Assembly (NCBI GenBank): GCA_938074205.1
Contig: CALJES010000002.1
Location: 248,001-312,000 of the forward strand
DNA from: an uncultured bacterium
GTDB taxonomy: Bacteria > Armatimonadota > UBA5829
Length of the DNA: 64,000 nt
Direction of reading: 5' to 3'
The notes below the pieces were generated by a model. The model was not told the DNA's origin and did not search any database. It saw nothing but the letters and a program-made list of their open reading frames with translations. Every line of letters begins with the position of its first letter. Position 1 is the first letter of the stretch. Made by a program: the position numbers and the translations under genes. This document shows positions 33,925-38,811 of the stretch, piece after piece.

Positions 33925-34641
33925 TCATCGCCAATTTTCCTCGCATCCGAAATCCAACGCGTAGTTCCTAAAACCGACGGCTAACGCCGTGCGTAGTGAC
34001 GCTACGTTATCTCGGTCGCATCCCCAGCCTACTAGACGACCATGGGCGAAGCAATATCTGACTGCAGTCGAAACCGTGCTTTTAGCGTAGCCTCTACCAC
34101 GGTAATCAGGATGCGTTTCTATACTGAGATCCCACACCTTATCCGACAGCACCTTCACCGCGCACCAAGTCACAGGTTTGCCATCAACAATTTGTCCGAA
34201 TACCGGTCCACCCCAAACATTTCTCATGTGCCAGGCGGACTCATCTTCGTTAGATACATCGCGAACCTCTCCGAAACTGCAATCTACGAACCCGGAAGGT
34301 TCACAAAACAACCTGTACCCGCGGAACCAGAAATTGGCGTCGATGTACTGCCCAAGTCGACGTTCCACCTCGGAACAGAGCTGAACATCCAACGTGCAGT
34401 TTTCCATTGCACTGACTATTTCATTAAGCTTCTCAGCCAATTCAGGTTTTACAGCGAACACAGCTCCTCGTGACTTGGACATTGCGTAAATTGCCAGAGA
34501 CAAGCCATGCGCGAATCGTATCCTTCGCATATCTCGGTGTGCCACAACAACGATGCTAGTGCCATTAAGTTGTTCCGGGGTACAGCAGAGCATGTTCGCA
34601 TAGTGCTTGTCCAGTGCTTCAACCGAATCCGAGTGTGCCAT
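33925..34641 (-). CDS. GNAT-family N-acetyltransferase
   Basis: A 238-aa protein whose C-terminal half is a GNAT domain: the acetyl-CoA loop HPDYRGRGYA (residues 177-186, R-x-x-G-x-G/A type) and VGWGCDRDNVASLRTALAVGF, typical of motif B. The N-terminal 100 residues are a separate region often seen in FR47-like acetyltransferases. Substrate unknown. It lies nine bases after the exonuclease-like gene and may be the last gene of the dCMP-deaminase cluster. Confidence 0.82.
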   Translation of the reverse strand: MAHSDSVEALDKHYANMLCCTPEQLNGTSIVVVAHRDMRRIRFAHGLSLAIYAMSKSRGAVFAVKPELAEKLNEIVSAMENCTLDVQLCSEVERRLGQYIDANFWFRGYRLFCEPSGFVDCSFGEVRDVSNEDESAWHMRNVWGGPVFGQIVDGKPVTWCAVKVLSDKVWDLSIETHPDYRGRGYAKSTVSTAVRYCFAHGRLVGWGCDRDNVASLRTALAVGFRNYALDFGCEENWR

Positions 34642-34650
34642 TGGTGATTG

Positions 34651-35415
34651 TTACTCTCTTCCCAACATTCGACTGGCCAAGTCCGCCATAGCAAGAAGGT
34701 CGTATAGGTTGTGTTTAACAACTTGAACAATCCTGCACAAGTTGCCTGTTTCCATGAACTCCAAGTATGCATCAGGCACTTCAGAAGAAGATATATCATC
34801 CTCCCGAAACCGGCCGCATATCATTTGTTCCAGGGTTTGTAACTTACAGTTTGGCAGCTCGTCCCCGTACCGGCGCCTAGCTTCCAAAAGTAAATCCAAA
34901 TGTATTTTCGGCTCTAGAAAATACACACCGTTAGCAACTGCTCTGCGGCGAATGTAGGGTATATCGAACCAAGTACCGTTGAACGTTACCAGAACACGGG
35001 CACCGCGAAGACGGTCTGATGCCGCGGCTATTATCCAGGGTTCCTCAGTGTAGTTGCGCGCGAAGTACTGGCGAAAGATGAATTCTTCAGCACTGCACTC
35101 CATTAAACCAATAAGGAACAAAGGAGTATCGGTTAGTCCTGTCGTTTCGATGTCCAGAAATACTGCCTGAGTAGGGTGGACAAGCTCACAAGGTTCTCCG
35201 GACTGGGCCAGCAAAGCACGATGCCATCCGAGGCTTTCTTCCAGCATCAAGAACCGGCGGTGGACGTACACTGATTGCACTTCGAACTCGCAGGCAAGAA
35301 TCTGGATTTCGCAGTAGGGCAGATCCGTCCGCGAGGAAGATAAACGCTGCAATAGCCAATCATCAGGCGATCTTTGCAGTTCCACTGCCGGCTCACCCAT
35401 ATTCTGCATTTCCAT
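34651..35415 (-). CDS. YprB-like RNase H-fold 3'-5' exonuclease
   Basis: A 254-aa protein with the DEDD-type first motif FLDIETTG (D88, E90), a second acidic motif in LVTFNGTWFDIPYI (D near 157), and a third region KHNLYDLLAMADL (H and D). This is the predicted RNase H-like exonuclease domain of YprB. Likely acts on DNA or RNA ends; substrate unknown. It follows the thymidylate-synthase-like gene after a 100-base gap. Confidence 0.82.
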   Translation of the reverse strand: MEMQNMGEPAVELQRSPDDWLLQRLSSSRTDLPYCEIQILACEFEVQSVYVHRRFLMLEESLGWHRALLAQSGEPCELVHPTQAVFLDIETTGLTDTPLFLIGLMECSAEEFIFRQYFARNYTEEPWIIAAASDRLRGARVLVTFNGTWFDIPYIRRRAVANGVYFLEPKIHLDLLLEARRRYGDELPNCKLQTLEQMICGRFREDDISSSEVPDAYLEFMETGNLCRIVQVVKHNLYDLLAMADLASRMLGRE

Positions 35416-35515: not shown

Positions 35516-37030
35516 TCACTCCTCCTCAAATGGTTCGCCCCTGATCAGACACTCCTCTGCTCTGGCAAGTTGTCTGCCAACGTAAAGGGCGTGGTTGATA
35601 TCGGATATTGCACAGTCCCTGGCGATCTCATGTTGAATACGTTCAGCTTTCTTGCCCCGGTATTCGGCAAGCTGTGTCCCATCCTGGCTGAGATGACACG
35701 CCACTATCTCCTTTGATTCACTATCCACTGAGATAACGAAATAGCCGTTAGGATCGAGATCGACTGAGAAGCCTTTGGATTCCGCAACGCGCCGCGCGAA
35801 GTCGTATCTAGCGGGATCTACGCTTATCGAATGGCTTACCACCGTTATCGCTCCAACTTTGATTCCTGCGCTGGACGAGACTATCTCGAGAACCTTCATC
35901 AACCCATACACGTTCCTCAGCCACGCATCTAGTGCGTTGTGCGTGCGGTAGATGGCGGTCAACGTGAGCTTATCCTCGAATACACGAAAGAATACACTTA
36001 CTAGACACGGCGAGCTATCAGCTTCGATGTCTATTGTGTTGTCCCACAATGTGAAGTAGCAGTGTCGGTCCTGTGGGTTCTTGCGCAGTCGTCCGGCGAA
36101 TAAACTCAACGCATCGATGCCGAAATGTCGCCTAAGCCGATTACCGTACGTATACGCCTGATCAATCAGTATCTCCGAGTCCACCATTTCGGCTTGGTAT
36201 TTTTTCAGATCGTCGAGAGAAAAACCGTACTCGCTGAGTTCCTCAGCTTCGTCCGGGGCAGGTTGGGTGATGACTACTTTAACGTTCTGAAGTTCCTGGC
36301 GGTCGCCTTTGTCTAAGCGGACCAGATGTCCGAATCTGACCAGTCGGAAGACAAGCTCGCGCCACGCTTGCAAAGGTGTTTCCTTGACTATTACGTGCGA
36401 CCGCGGCTCGCTCGGAAAACGCTTCACTCGTACTTCCGGAAGTGGGACCTCGAGGCGTTCAGTTGTTACGGGCGGAAAAGGAGAGTATGAATGCACAAAC
36501 CTGTATAGTTTTATGGCTGCATATTGATCATCAGGTTCGCCGAAGACGTGAATGCGCGGTTTTTCCGCAAACATTTCGGGCGTGACTAATGAGTCTATAA
36601 CGTGGCTAGTGCCTTTGATCCGGGTTATTTTCTCTCCTAGGTAATCCGCTTTTTCCAAGCCTTCTTCGAAAAACGCGATAAGGTCCTGAGATGAGCCGGA
36701 TCTGTCTCTGCCGAAAACCGCCAAATCTCGAATCTGCGGGTTATACAGCAGATTGCGAAGTAGGTGCGGGATTCCGTTGCCGTATAGGTTGCCCACGACG
36801 GCTATCTTTGAAGTTTCAGGGCACAGGTCGATTCCGAGTTCCTGAAGCCTTTGGATAATGTAACTTTGGGTGCTCCAAAGCGTAATAATGCCCAGCCTAC
36901 CGCGAGGGTTGATGACGGTCAGCTTGTCACCAAAGTGCAGCGGTACGAATTCCAGGGTGCATGCACTCGAATCGTAGGGTTTCGGGGAATGGCAATCGGT
37001 AGATCGCTTAGCTATATCACTTCCCTGCAT
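35516..37030 (-). CDS. Thymidylate-synthase-like protein with an N-terminal MtrA-like (DUF4346-type) domain
   Basis: 504 aa from the ATG at 37030, which overlaps the stop of the ParB-like gene by 14 bases and has GAGGG upstream; a frame open to 37147 is not needed. Residues about 30-175 match the MtrA/DUF4346-like segment (KIAVVGNLYGNGIPHLLRNL, FGRDRSGSSQDLIAFFEEG). Residues about 290-500 resemble thymidylate synthase: YGNRLRRHFG, a catalytic-type Cys in SSPCLVSVFF (C342) and YRTHNALDAWLRNVYG where ThyA has the RS-x-D ... PFN segment. The Cys is present, while the ThyA substrate loop is altered. Could be this organism's dTMP-forming enzyme or a nucleotide hydroxymethylase-type enzyme; dCMP deaminase is encoded upstream. 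Confidence 0.74.
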   Translation of the reverse strand: MQGSDIAKRSTDCHSPKPYDSSACTLEFVPLHFGDKLTVINPRGRLGIITLWSTQSYIIQRLQELGIDLCPETSKIAVVGNLYGNGIPHLLRNLLYNPQIRDLAVFGRDRSGSSQDLIAFFEEGLEKADYLGEKITRIKGTSHVIDSLVTPEMFAEKPRIHVFGEPDDQYAAIKLYRFVHSYSPFPPVTTERLEVPLPEVRVKRFPSEPRSHVIVKETPLQAWRELVFRLVRFGHLVRLDKGDRQELQNVKVVITQPAPDEAEELSEYGFSLDDLKKYQAEMVDSEILIDQAYTYGNRLRRHFGIDALSLFAGRLRKNPQDRHCYFTLWDNTIDIEADSSPCLVSVFFRVFEDKLTLTAIYRTHNALDAWLRNVYGLMKVLEIVSSSAGIKVGAITVVSHSISVDPARYDFARRVAESKGFSVDLDPNGYFVISVDSESKEIVACHLSQDGTQLAEYRGKKAERIQHEIARDCAISDINHALYVGRQLARAEECLIRGEPFEEE

Positions 37031-37631
37031 TGACAAATCGCCCTCTAGGTCCGCCGACGTTTTGGAACGCCGTATTGAAGTCGCGGTAAAGCGTCTTGTA
37101 ATTGGGTATACGGTGCCACTTTTTGATATAATTCTCTGGGAGTTCATCCACTATCTCTACGTCGTTCCAGCCATTAACTAGTGGGTAAGCGTAGTAGGGA
37201 TATTCCTTGGGAACATCTCTCACATAGACTACTTGAATGGGTGATCGTTCCATACGAGCCAAATAGACGCGATGCATGCCGTCGTTGAGTATTTTCACTA
37301 CGCTGCCGTCGGCTTCTACTGAGCGTTCTATGACAGGCGGCAGTACATCTATTGGTTCATCGTATCCGCGAAGCCACATGGTCACATATCCGTTCAAATT
37401 GAAAAGGTCCACATCCCACTCGCGAAGCGCCCATTTCAAGTTGCGCACCTTGAGTATCTCTTGAACAAGCACATACCTCTGTGCTGGTGATATTTCGTCG
37501 GTATGCAGTGTGACGACTTCGATTCGGCAGTCTCTATAGAGCTTTATATTAGGGTCGGTCAGCATTCCCACATTGCGCATATTGTCGATAAGTTCTTCGA
37601 TCGAATGGTGCTCTATCCGCTCAATGTTCAT
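37017..37631 (-). CDS. ParB/sulfiredoxin-fold-like protein, 204 aa
   Basis: Unrecognised as a named protein. A central ILNDGMHRVYLARMER (near residues 113-128) resembles the DG-x-HR core of ParB/Srx-type nucleotide-binding or nuclease folds. The flanks are rich in Trp and Tyr (YPYYAYPLVNGWNDVEIVDE). GAGG lies eight bases before the ATG. It begins three bases after the HAD gene and overlaps the start of the thymidylate-synthase-like gene. ParB-like proteins occur in phage and bacterial DNA-base modification clusters, which is why the context is of interest (inference). Confidence 0.65.
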   Translation of the reverse strand: MNIERIEHHSIEELIDNMRNVGMLTDPNIKLYRDCRIEVVTLHTDEISPAQRYVLVQEILKVRNLKWALREWDVDLFNLNGYVTMWLRGYDEPIDVLPPVIERSVEADGSVVKILNDGMHRVYLARMERSPIQVVYVRDVPKEYPYYAYPLVNGWNDVEIVDELPENYIKKWHRIPNYKTLYRDFNTAFQNVGGPRGRFVNAGK

Positions 37632-37634
37632 TCA

Positions 37635-38342
37635 CTATACCTCAGACAGGCTAGTTTTTGTTGTCACTCGGTCCCGGCAGAACAATGGCAGGTGTAGTAT
37701 CTGGGTGATGTCAAGAACAGTGAATTCGGGAGTCGGTGAATCTGCGTTCAGCAGCCGCACAATGTAATCCTTCTCACGTTCCGGACGCGCAAGAACCCAG
37801 ATTGTGTGCATCCCAAGTTCGATTGCCGGCAAGATATCGTGTTCATAGGTGTCCCCTATCATAACTGCCTCACTGGCCTCGATATGTAACTCCTCAAGAA
37901 CTCGATTGAAGTTGAACAAGTCGGGCTTTCTTCTGCCAGTCTCGAAACTGAGCACTACAGCGTCTGACACTTCCAGGATATCAGGAATTGCTCGCTGAAC
38001 ACTGAGGTAGTACGGCGTCCAAATATCGGACACCAACCCTATCTTGAATCCACGTTTTTTAAGAGTAAGTACAGTTTCAACAGACCCTCCAATTTCCTGG
38101 GCGGCGTTCGCTTGCGAGTTCCACAGCTCTTCCACAGCACGCGAGGCATCGGTACTAAGAGGACCAAACTTAGCTTCCAGAGCTGCCACGGCATCCACCG
38201 GACTGAATAGTGGCTGGGTCATAATTACGGCGGCTACCTCCGAAGGCGTTGTGCAGCCGATTACGCTCGCGATTATTTTGTTCGGTGCCACCGGCGGACC
38301 GGTCACCAGTGTGGCGCCTATGTCAAAGACTACGGCTTTCAC
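37635..38342 (-). CDS. HAD-superfamily phosphatase
   Basis: 235 aa from a GTG at 38342 (AVVFDIGATLVTG). The frame is open to 38399, but that part has no HAD-like sequence. Motif I is DIGAT, so the nucleophile Asp7 is present and the second Asp (general acid) is Gly, as in a HAD subgroup with DxGGT. Later GLVSDIW (motif II), KPDLFNF (motif III lysine in GRRKPD) and MIGDTYEHD (motif IV) are clear. Likely acts on a nucleotide or sugar phosphate. The start lies within the end of the dCMP deaminase gene (20-base overlap). Confidence 0.85.
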   Translation of the reverse strand: MKAVVFDIGATLVTGPPVAPNKIIASVIGCTTPSEVAAVIMTQPLFSPVDAVAALEAKFGPLSTDASRAVEELWNSQANAAQEIGGSVETVLTLKKRGFKIGLVSDIWTPYYLSVQRAIPDILEVSDAVVLSFETGRRKPDLFNFNRVLEELHIEASEAVMIGDTYEHDILPAIELGMHTIWVLARPEREKDYIVRLLNADSPTPEFTVLDITQILHLPLFCRDRVTTKTSLSEV

Positions 38343-38811
38343 AGCAACTGTTTTCGATTTGCGTGTTATCACTGGTGTCCCACTCCACAACTTCCACACC
38401 TGACTTTTTGAGAAGGTCGATTCCGTCGGACGTGCCTTTGTTGTCGCGCCTTACAACTACCCGCACTATTCCGCACGCCACTATCAACTTTGCGCACGTT
38501 ATACAGATATCTGCGTTCACGTACAATGTGGCGCCCCCTACTGCCAATCCTCGCTTTGCGCATTGACAGATAGCGTTCTGCTCAGCATGGATACAAATCT
38601 TGTACTCCTCCGTGCCGGCTATCTCCTTTAGACACTTGCCTGTATCGCAGCAGTGCTCATGACCACTAGGTACTCCGTTATAGCCGTGGGAGAGTATACG
38701 ATGATCGTATGTTATAACAGCCCCGACCTTCTTGCGCAGACACGTAGACCTGCGGGCTATTACGTCGACAACGTCCATGTAGACTTCATCAAACGATGGT
38801 CTCTTCGCCAA
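38323..38811 (-). CDS. comEB: dCMP deaminase (ComEB type)
   Basis: Deaminates dCMP to dUMP, the thymidylate synthase substrate. The 162-aa protein has the catalytic HAE (H75, A76, E77) and zinc cysteines C103 and C106 in ICITC, plus an additional Cys-rich segment GHEHCCDTGKC (residues 50-60) typical of this family. The proline usually before the first Cys is Ile. Start is TTG at 38811 with GAGG nine bases upstream and a promoter about 35 bases upstream. Head of the cluster with the HAD, ParB-like and thymidylate-synthase-like genes. Confidence 0.92.
   Translation of the reverse strand: MAKRPSFDEVYMDVVDVIARRSTCLRKKVGAVITYDHRILSHGYNGVPSGHEHCCDTGKCLKEIAGTEEYKICIHAEQNAICQCAKRGLAVGGATLYVNADICITCAKLIVACGIVRVVVRRDNKGTSDGIDLLKKSGVEVVEWDTSDNTQIENSCCESRSL

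Follow-up and report, generated by a model that had tools for sequence, protein, structure and literature searches.

Cells cannot do without thymidylate synthesis, which in nearly all of cellular life is credited to one of two unrelated enzymes, ThyA or ThyX. A cluster of four genes on the minus strand of an Armatimonadota genome that is 98% complete (positions 35516-38811 of the 64,000-nucleotide stretch of DNA that we analyzed, hereafter the window) raises the question of whether its products make dTMP by an unusual route or instead produce a modified deoxypyrimidine. The first-pass annotation had offered both possibilities, and it is the dTMP route that has held up, as the cluster encodes the only candidate synthase and its linkage is conserved; the modified base has not. 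We consider it probable that the cluster is an operon for making dTMP de novo, which stands in for ThyA as well as ThyX, operates independently of DHFR, and is built on a methanogen-type thymidylate synthase (TS) core with a pterin-binding tail. Its product is likely to be dTMP and unlikely to be a modified base. The components of the cluster are as follows.

38323..38811, minus strand: dCMP deaminase, 162 aa, TTG start (PF00383, 1.3e-18; PHROG 174, 4.8e-46)
37635..38342, minus strand: HAD-fold protein, GTG start (PF13419/PF00702, 1e-13)
37017..37631, minus strand: ParB-CE, 204 aa (PF24392, 2.9e-63)
35516..37030, minus strand: fusion of MtrA-like domain, methanogen-type thymidylate synthase and PterinBD-DUF4346, 504 aa (profile matches, AF2)
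36482..36937, minus strand: MtrA-like N-terminal domain of the fusion, residues ~32-183 (profile matches to 8q3v, 1.3e-5, and 5laa, 7e-5)
35780..36415, minus strand: TS core of the fusion, residues ~206-417 (TIGR03283, 5.8e-35; PF00303, 7e-6; Foldseek)
36005..36007, minus strand: codon of Cys342, at the position of E. coli TS Cys146 (invariant, 76/76)
35525..35758, minus strand: C-terminal PterinBD-DUF4346 domain of the fusion, residues ~425-502 (PF14251, 1.4e-20)

With the start codons chosen here, the four genes overlap or abut as originally described, with overlaps of 20 and 14 bases and one gap of 3 bases. The mechanically predicted reading frame of the HAD gene extends to 38399, and that of the fusion encodes 543 aa, as compared with 504 aa from the ATG at 37030. 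We rejected the downstream RNase H-fold and GNAT genes, which the first-pass annotation had listed with the cluster, as parts of the module because they are linked to it only inside the same Armatimonadota family.

Profile matches agree with the initial description of the fusion as a TS-like domain with a catalytic-type Cys342 joined to an MtrA/DUF4346-like domain. Searching the PDB with the single fusion sequence gave only marginal TS matches, and profiles were needed to detect the relationship. TIGR03283 matches all 47 of 47 fusion members, and its score on the TS core of the window protein (120.6 bits) lies below the equivalog cut-off of 174.55, while the PF00303 score of the core is above its own cut-off. 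PF14251 is matched in 46 of 47 members (E<=0.01) and exceeds its gathering score in the window protein (74 vs 29.6 bits), and the Thy1 domain PF02511 is not among the fusion's Pfam matches. In an AF2 model of the fusion (pLDDT 90.9), the TS core folds like TS and dCMP hydroxylase structures (Foldseek, E ~1e-11), and the best phage matches of the fusion are TS-like genes of siphophages. The top structural match to the core is AfhB (9iqu), a TS-fold flavin-dependent dCMP hydroxylase with a truncated TS fold; it shares 16% identity with the fusion, and its E-value is barely better than that of ordinary TSs, so that we did not accept flavin use from this match, and flavin binding is unsupported here.

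The outer domains of the fusion correspond to the two ends of MtrA-DUF4346 proteins (PF04208, NF002128; ~390 aa), which lack the intervening TS core. The N-terminal domain is homologous to the soluble domain of MtrA, matching the structures 8q3v and 5laa in profile searches (E 1e-5 to 7e-5), but in alignments the corrinoid-ligand GH motif of MtrA, which contains the cobalt-ligand His, is not kept and an SGS-type sequence stands in its place. An MtrA-DUF4346 protein in another Armatimonadota genome (L026) has the corrinoid-ligand motif as PKGH, where the fusion has RSGS. Because the corrinoid-ligand His is lost in the fusion family, the MtrA-like domain yields no mechanism, and we did not adopt corrinoid methyl transfer. 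A literature search returned no paper on DUF4346, and one on TS with methanopterin and MtrA gave nothing.

Conservation of active-site residues was scored over 76 aligned fusion sequences in the numbering of canonical ThyA, with residue roles other than that of D169 taken from PMC6005164. The positions of Cys146, Arg21/126/166 and Asn177 are each kept in 76/76 sequences; the His147 position is occupied by Leu, Phe or Met, the His207 position by Ser, Thr or Gly, and the Tyr209 position by Asp, Asn or Ser, and the R127 position is variable. The position of D169, which we take to be the folate-site residue that positions folate in ThyA, is Asn in 76/76 sequences and is immediately preceded by an invariant His. 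Judged from sequence, the altered ribose-contact His/Tyr and folate-site Asp could mean another substrate or reaction.

We counted the other thymidylate genes of fusion carriers by HMM searches of ORFs in all six frames. The first-pass annotation had named a normal thyA or thyX elsewhere as evidence against its proposal; the window genome contains neither. ThyX (PF02511) gave no match there, the fusion is the sole TS-family protein, and DHFR and a convincing thymidine kinase are likewise missing. We extended these counts to 56 fusion-bearing bacterial genomes from Armatimonadota, Bacillota, Desulfobacterota, Nitrospirota/Nitrospinota, Pseudomonadota and Synergistota. ThyX is absent from 53 of the 56 (present in G007, G084 and G092), the fusion is the sole TS-Pfam match in all except G067 and G075, and DHFR (PF00186) is absent from 52, with four carrying a DHFR-family gene. 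Cultured carriers of the fusion include Desulfofundulus thermobenzoicus, Desulfacinum and Desulfonema, and the genome of Desulfonema magnum is closed. Absence of DHFR is also compatible with FolM, flavin-dependent or other DHF reductases. Thymidine salvage was rejected, as the PF00265 matches are weak, partial P-loop matches in frames of ~360-440 aa, and the window-genome PF00265 locus reads as a PilT-type ATPase. Within the Armatimonadota family of the window, the only member without the fusion (G010) carries ThyX and lacks ParB-CE. ThyA is coupled to FolA, and bacteria without DHFR mostly use ThyX (PMC1971073, PMC9931769).

The genes of the cluster also travel together. A search for their linkage in relatives, proposed in the first-pass annotation, showed that linkage of the same four families extends to at least six phyla and one large (jumbo-type) virus, with several gene orders among them. 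Viruses also carry the module. The absence of ThyX, another TS, DHFR and a convincing thymidine kinase, combined with this linkage across phyla, supports an unusual route to dTMP. The cluster is not a set of chance neighbors, a reading in which the fusion would be a minor or decaying protein of Armatimonadota and to which we assign almost no probability. HAD proteins and deaminases are common superfamilies, and in many Desulfobacterota loci the genes are no longer linked; yet linkage recurs in several phyla in differing orders, these particular HAD and ParB-CE subfamilies accompany the fusion even from unlinked sites, and the catalytic residues are conserved. The linkage and the distribution of ParB-CE already contradict this reading.

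ParB-CE is an obligate partner of the fusion. It is present in 56/56 fusion-bearing genomes, often on a different contig, and in 0/47 fusion-less genomes of Armatimonadota (Fisher 4e-14, relatedness ignored). Its AF2 model (pLDDT 93.3) has the fold of sulfiredoxin (Foldseek prob 1.00, E 1e-3) and also matches SerK and ParB (prob 0.85-1.00). The PP..E and DGxHR motifs are invariant, and across 30 sequences neither DG nor HR varies. ParB-CE shares with sulfiredoxin, the free serine kinase SerK, SbnI and ParB CTPases both a fold and a G-x-H-R motif of nucleotide-binding type; unlike these proteins, it lacks an HTH or parS context, forms its own family (PF24392) and is tied to a thymidylate synthase. 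Neither ParB-CE nor the viral fusion has a match among INPHARED phages, ParB-CE has none in plasmids, and literature matches to its name concern the unrelated centromere ParB.

The other two proteins fared differently. The assignment of the first gene as a dCMP deaminase stands, as PF00383 and PHROG profiles agree with its zinc motifs (HAE and CxxC, conserved; HAE...ICITC in the window protein), and in Nitrospirota and Magnetococcia operons a dCTP deaminase (Dcd, PF22769) replaces it. The label of phosphatase for the HAD protein is, by contrast, doubtful: motifs II-IV are kept (S, KP, GD....D), but in 35 aligned sequences motif I reads DIGxTL rather than DxDxT, the second Asp, the phosphatase acid/base, being replaced by Gly. 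An orthologue occurs in 38/56 fusion genomes and 0/11 tested fusion-less ones (E<1e-50), so that one fusion genome in three lacks it.

Among known systems, the methanogen-type TS (TIGR03283) is the family that matches the TS core most closely, and it has a likewise short core. DHFR is mostly missing from fusion genomes, and two control methanogen genomes also gave no DHFR match; these two genomes lack ParB-CE. Unlike the methanogen-type TS, the fusion occurs in bacteria, places its core between MtrA-like and DUF4346 domains, and has a strict ParB-CE partner. With ThyA (PF00303) it has in common the fold, the nucleophile Cys, the phosphate-binding Arg residues and the Asn177 position, but it differs in D169 to N, H207/Y209 to S/D, a variable R127, two extra domains and no FolA coupling. 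With ThyX (PF02511) it shares a genomic logic, namely DHFR-less genomes and a complementary distribution within the family, without any sequence or domain relation.

We propose a route in which dUMP comes from dCMP deaminase (in other phyla, from dCTP deaminase). The fusion would then methylate dUMP at C5 after attack of Cys342 on C6, with Arg244/322/362 holding the phosphate and Asn373 selecting uracil. A methylene-tetrahydropterin, of either the H4folate or an H4MPT-like kind, probably donates the one-carbon unit, and the DUF4346 pterin-binding tail may handle it. Unlike ThyA, the enzyme would probably release no bulk dihydrofolate, given the Asn at the Asp169 position, the invariant His before it and the DHFR-less genomes; reduction may come from elsewhere or take place on the enzyme itself, following the logic of ThyX. 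A plausible role for ParB-CE, whose ParB/Srx fold is of ATP/CTP-binding type, is that of a small-molecule kinase or activator enabling synthase turnover, and HAD often accompanies it. Tentatively, and with slightly more doubt than confidence, we suggest that thymidylate is made de novo here by a third class of system, found in at least six bacterial phyla and in large viruses. Its TS-fold enzyme, equipped with MtrA-like and pterin-binding domains of its own, would need neither DHFR nor a flavin-type ThyX but would require a PF24392 ParB/sulfiredoxin-fold nucleotide-binding partner.

An unlikely but serious alternative is that the fusion is a divergent, chemically ordinary ThyA, in which CH2-H4folate is both carbon donor and reductant, released dihydrofolate is recycled by an unrecognised DHF reductase, and the MtrA-like and DUF4346 domains and ParB-CE/HAD are structural or regulatory. 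The absence of DHFR from 52/56 genomes, the loss of D169 in 76/76 sequences and the strict dependence on ParB-CE, of a kind that we know of for no ThyA, argue against it; the conserved TS fold and catalytic Cys, the four genomes with a DHFR-family gene and the existence of alternative DHF reductases (PMC1971073) are in its favor. We regard as quite improbable a third reading, in which the module serves to modify DNA or the nucleotide pool by making a modified deoxypyrimidine such as 5-hydroxymethyl-dUMP, and ParB-CE and HAD carry out tailoring steps of the kinase/phosphatase type. Both dCMP hydroxymethylase-like enzymes and dCMP hydroxylases do occur among the TS-fold relatives, the phage matches nearest to the fusion are TS-like siphophage genes, viruses carry the module, and H207/Y209 and D169 are altered. 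Where ThyX and a convincing thymidine kinase are missing, however, the fusion is left as the sole TS-like enzyme, and dTMP has to come from it unless many bacterial chromosomes have replaced thymine altogether. A modified base is further unsupported because of the deaminase swap, the invariant uracil-selecting Asn177 and the neighboring ORFs, in the scanned subset of which we found no glycosyl/acyl transferase, DNA kinase, TET-like or other base-decorating gene; the HAD protein's missing phosphatase Asp also counts against it.

Dozens of bacteria in at least six phyla carry the fusion, nearly all of them without ThyX, which suggests that one of the building blocks of DNA can be made in a manner not yet described. 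If the dTMP route is correct, the module would stand in for ThyA and ThyX, apparently with no need of DHFR, in cultured sulfate reducers, magnetotactic bacteria, Beggiatoa relatives and Armatimonadota, filling a gap in the metabolic maps of these groups. It would also give PF24392 and DUF4346 their first functional context, and would have implications for dTMP synthesis in methanogens, whose TS has received little study (PMC9012536).

The module's four genes lie on one strand, and the coordinates, the 20- and 14-base overlaps and the 3-base gap read by the first-pass annotation were all reproduced:

38323-38811, minus strand, dCMP deaminase
37635-38342, minus strand, HAD protein
37017-37631, minus strand, ParB-CE (PF24392)
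35516-37030, minus strand, fusion

The mechanical ORF of the fusion is 543 aa, its upstream extension running into the ParB-CE gene; because homologues of other genera start near the start of the 504-aa version, we adopted the latter's numbering. Its domains are as follows:

residues ~32-183, MtrA-like
residues ~206-417, thymidylate synthase (TS) core
residues 425-502, PterinBD-DUF4346

The RNase H-fold nuclease and GNAT genes (window 33925-35415), which that annotation had noted as following the cluster, keep their downstream linkage only within the Armatimonadota family; their adjacency is lineage synteny, outside the module.

The fusion is the sole TS-type enzyme in nearly all of its carriers. 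The genome that contains the window measures 3.02 Mb and is 97.9% complete. Searching it for an ordinary thyA or thyX left the fusion itself as the single match to PF00303; no ThyX was found by profile search, nor any DHFR, nor a convincing thymidine kinase candidate. Matches to PF00265 (thymidine kinase) are weak, partial and inside ~360-440-aa frames, and we read the one in the window genome as a P-loop of PilT/secretion type. In f1, the Armatimonadota family of this genome, 14 of 15 genomes carry the fusion; the exception, G010, encodes ThyX and lacks ParB-CE, and one, G007, has ThyX and the fusion together. ThyX is present in 40 of the 46 remaining fusion-less genomes of the phylum (G010 apart). 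Many genomes of the phylum have a tandem-duplicated ThyX, in ~500-570-aa frames with two PF02511 matches (G028, G029, G032, G037, G041-G043, G046, G052, G054-G056, G058, G059), and Armatimonadota also have separate ~260-330-aa TS-like families beside ThyX (L016-L025, L027-L029) that keep RSND and HIY.

When GTDB representatives were searched with the alignment of the family, 77 fusion loci emerged, in Armatimonadota/Abditibacteriota, Desulfofundulus, Desulfovirgula, Desulfocucumis, Desulfacinum, Desulfobacca, Syntrophobacterales, Thiotrichaceae, Magnetococcales, Magnetominusculus, Synergistaceae, one Nitrospinota bin and the complete genome of Desulfonema magnum. The fusion tree broadly follows taxonomy, which excludes recent contamination as the source. 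Among the 42 bacterial fusion genomes from the scan, only two, both Magnetominusculus, have ThyX, and PF00303 finds the fusion alone save in G067 and G075; in five genomes it matches nothing, the fusion there being too divergent for Pfam. G067 and G075, both Desulfobacterota, have a second, smaller TS-like protein of the ~260-330 aa class (G067:C22, L146; G075:C183, L145). With f1 included, ThyX is absent from 53 of 56 fusion genomes and DHFR from 52 of 56. These absences were called from Pfam searches, mostly in MAGs; assembly gaps are an unlikely cause, since 56 genomes agree, some of them cultured and closed.

The four genes recur together in varied orders across phyla. HMM searches of six-frame ORFs around 79 loci found ParB-CE adjoining the fusion in ~35; the HAD adjoined it in 34, and dCMP deaminase did so in 25. 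Among the gene orders are:

dCMPd-HAD-ParBCE-TS: Armatimonadota, Bacillota
dCMPd-TS-HAD: Syntrophobacteraceae
TS-ParBCE: Desulfobacca
HAD-ParBCE-dCMPd-TS: Desulfonema, one virus
TS-HAD-ParBCE: Magnetococcales
ParBCE-TS-dCMPd: Synergistaceae

dCTP deaminase occupies the deaminase slot at three loci of Nitrospirota and at six of Magnetococcales, and this non-orthologous swap between two dUMP-supplying deaminases is the best single argument for dUMP as the substrate. In Desulfonema magnum the module is immediately preceded, on its upstream side, by a gene for a LAGLIDADG-type protein (L102 4309-6075).

ParB-CE is an obligate partner of the fusion. All 56 fusion-bearing bacterial genomes have it, often on a different contig; the phylum's 47 fusion-less genomes and 14 control genomes gave no match (Fisher's p 4e-14 within the phylum, relatedness ignored), and further phyla show the same pattern. 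G006 has an intact, synthase-less dCMPd-HAD-ParBCE operon and, at another place, a double TS-DUF4346 fusion, in whose second TS copy both the Cys (PC -> PS) and the SHS His are gone. The structural matches of the ParB-CE model (pLDDT 93) are sulfiredoxin, the serine kinase SerK and ParB CTPases, and PP..E and DGxHR are invariant; these features suggest that it binds NTP and perhaps transfers a phosphoryl group. At E<1e-50 the module-specific HAD is present in 38 of the 56 fusion genomes and absent from all 11 fusion-less genomes tested. Its motif I reads DIGxTL and therefore lacks the acid/base Asp of HAD phosphatases, so the phosphatase activity first ascribed to it is not to be assumed.

Viruses carry the module as well. 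One viral contig of 286 kb (L126), with genes for RNA polymerase beta-type subunits, has HAD, ParB-CE, dCMP deaminase and fusion consecutively, and the fusion is also on viral contigs L125 and L151. Querying viral contigs with ParB-CE gave one further fusion, adjoining ParB-CE (L150); two 67-70 kb contigs with ParB-CE (L148, L149) had none in the 12.6 kb examined. Three others (L153, L155, L156) encode a distant version, ~25% identical, with canonical RSND and, in those read, the HIY residues. INPHARED phages held no relative beyond the TS core. L110, titled Zambryskibacteria, shows same-strand packing and PHROG matches next to the module, and is probably a phage contig within the bin.

The catalytic-type Cys and altered substrate loop noted at first pass hold across the family: the positions of the E. 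coli TS nucleophile Cys146, of Arg21, Arg126 and Arg166 and of the uracil-selecting Asn177 are invariant in 76 aligned sequences (contacts to phosphate, sugar and base by residue: PMC6005164). The Gln165-Asn177 stretch keeps its 13 residues and reads F/Y-R-T-H-N-A-x-D-A-W-x-x-N, with position 168 His and the Asp169 position Asn in 76/76. Asp169 of TS is important in folate activation. The His207 column is Ser/Thr/Gly and the Tyr209 column Asp/Asn/Ser; TS-like proteins of other Armatimonadota retain RSND and HIY, so these alterations are specific to the fusion family. AlphaFold models the fusion with confidence (pLDDT 90.9), its domain packing unsure given a pTM of 0.63, and Foldseek returns TS, CMP hydroxymethylase and flavin-dependent dCMP hydroxylase at near-identical E-values. 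The MtrA-like domain aligns with MtrA of known structure but does not conserve the His that ligates the corrinoid. A 373-aa MtrA-DUF4346 protein of another Armatimonadota genome (G050; L026 224-1342) has no TS core and keeps a corrinoid-type PKGH (GH motif); it suggests an origin of the fusion by insertion of a TS core between the two domains, with this protein a possible ancestor-like scaffold. In yak-rumen Abditibacteriota (L038 4026-6380, L043 6703-9072) one protein comprises two TS-DUF4346 units; the second, with Ser at the nucleophile Cys and Met at the SHS His, is by its residues probably a non-catalytic pseudo-subunit.

FolA is needed in ThyA-containing genomes, and DHFR-less genomes mostly rely on ThyX (PMC1971073, PMC9931769); the module thus joins ThyX logic to a ThyA-type fold, sharing with ThyX its DHFR-less hosts and with ThyA the fold of its synthase. 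We propose that the fusion methylates dUMP, that a tetrahydropterin would be the one-carbon donor, that reduction would proceed without release of dihydrofolate, and that ParB-CE may give the synthase NTP-dependent help. The fusion is very probably the dTMP synthase of these organisms, and it may, at somewhat less than even likelihood, represent a distinct, DHFR-independent class of that enzyme.
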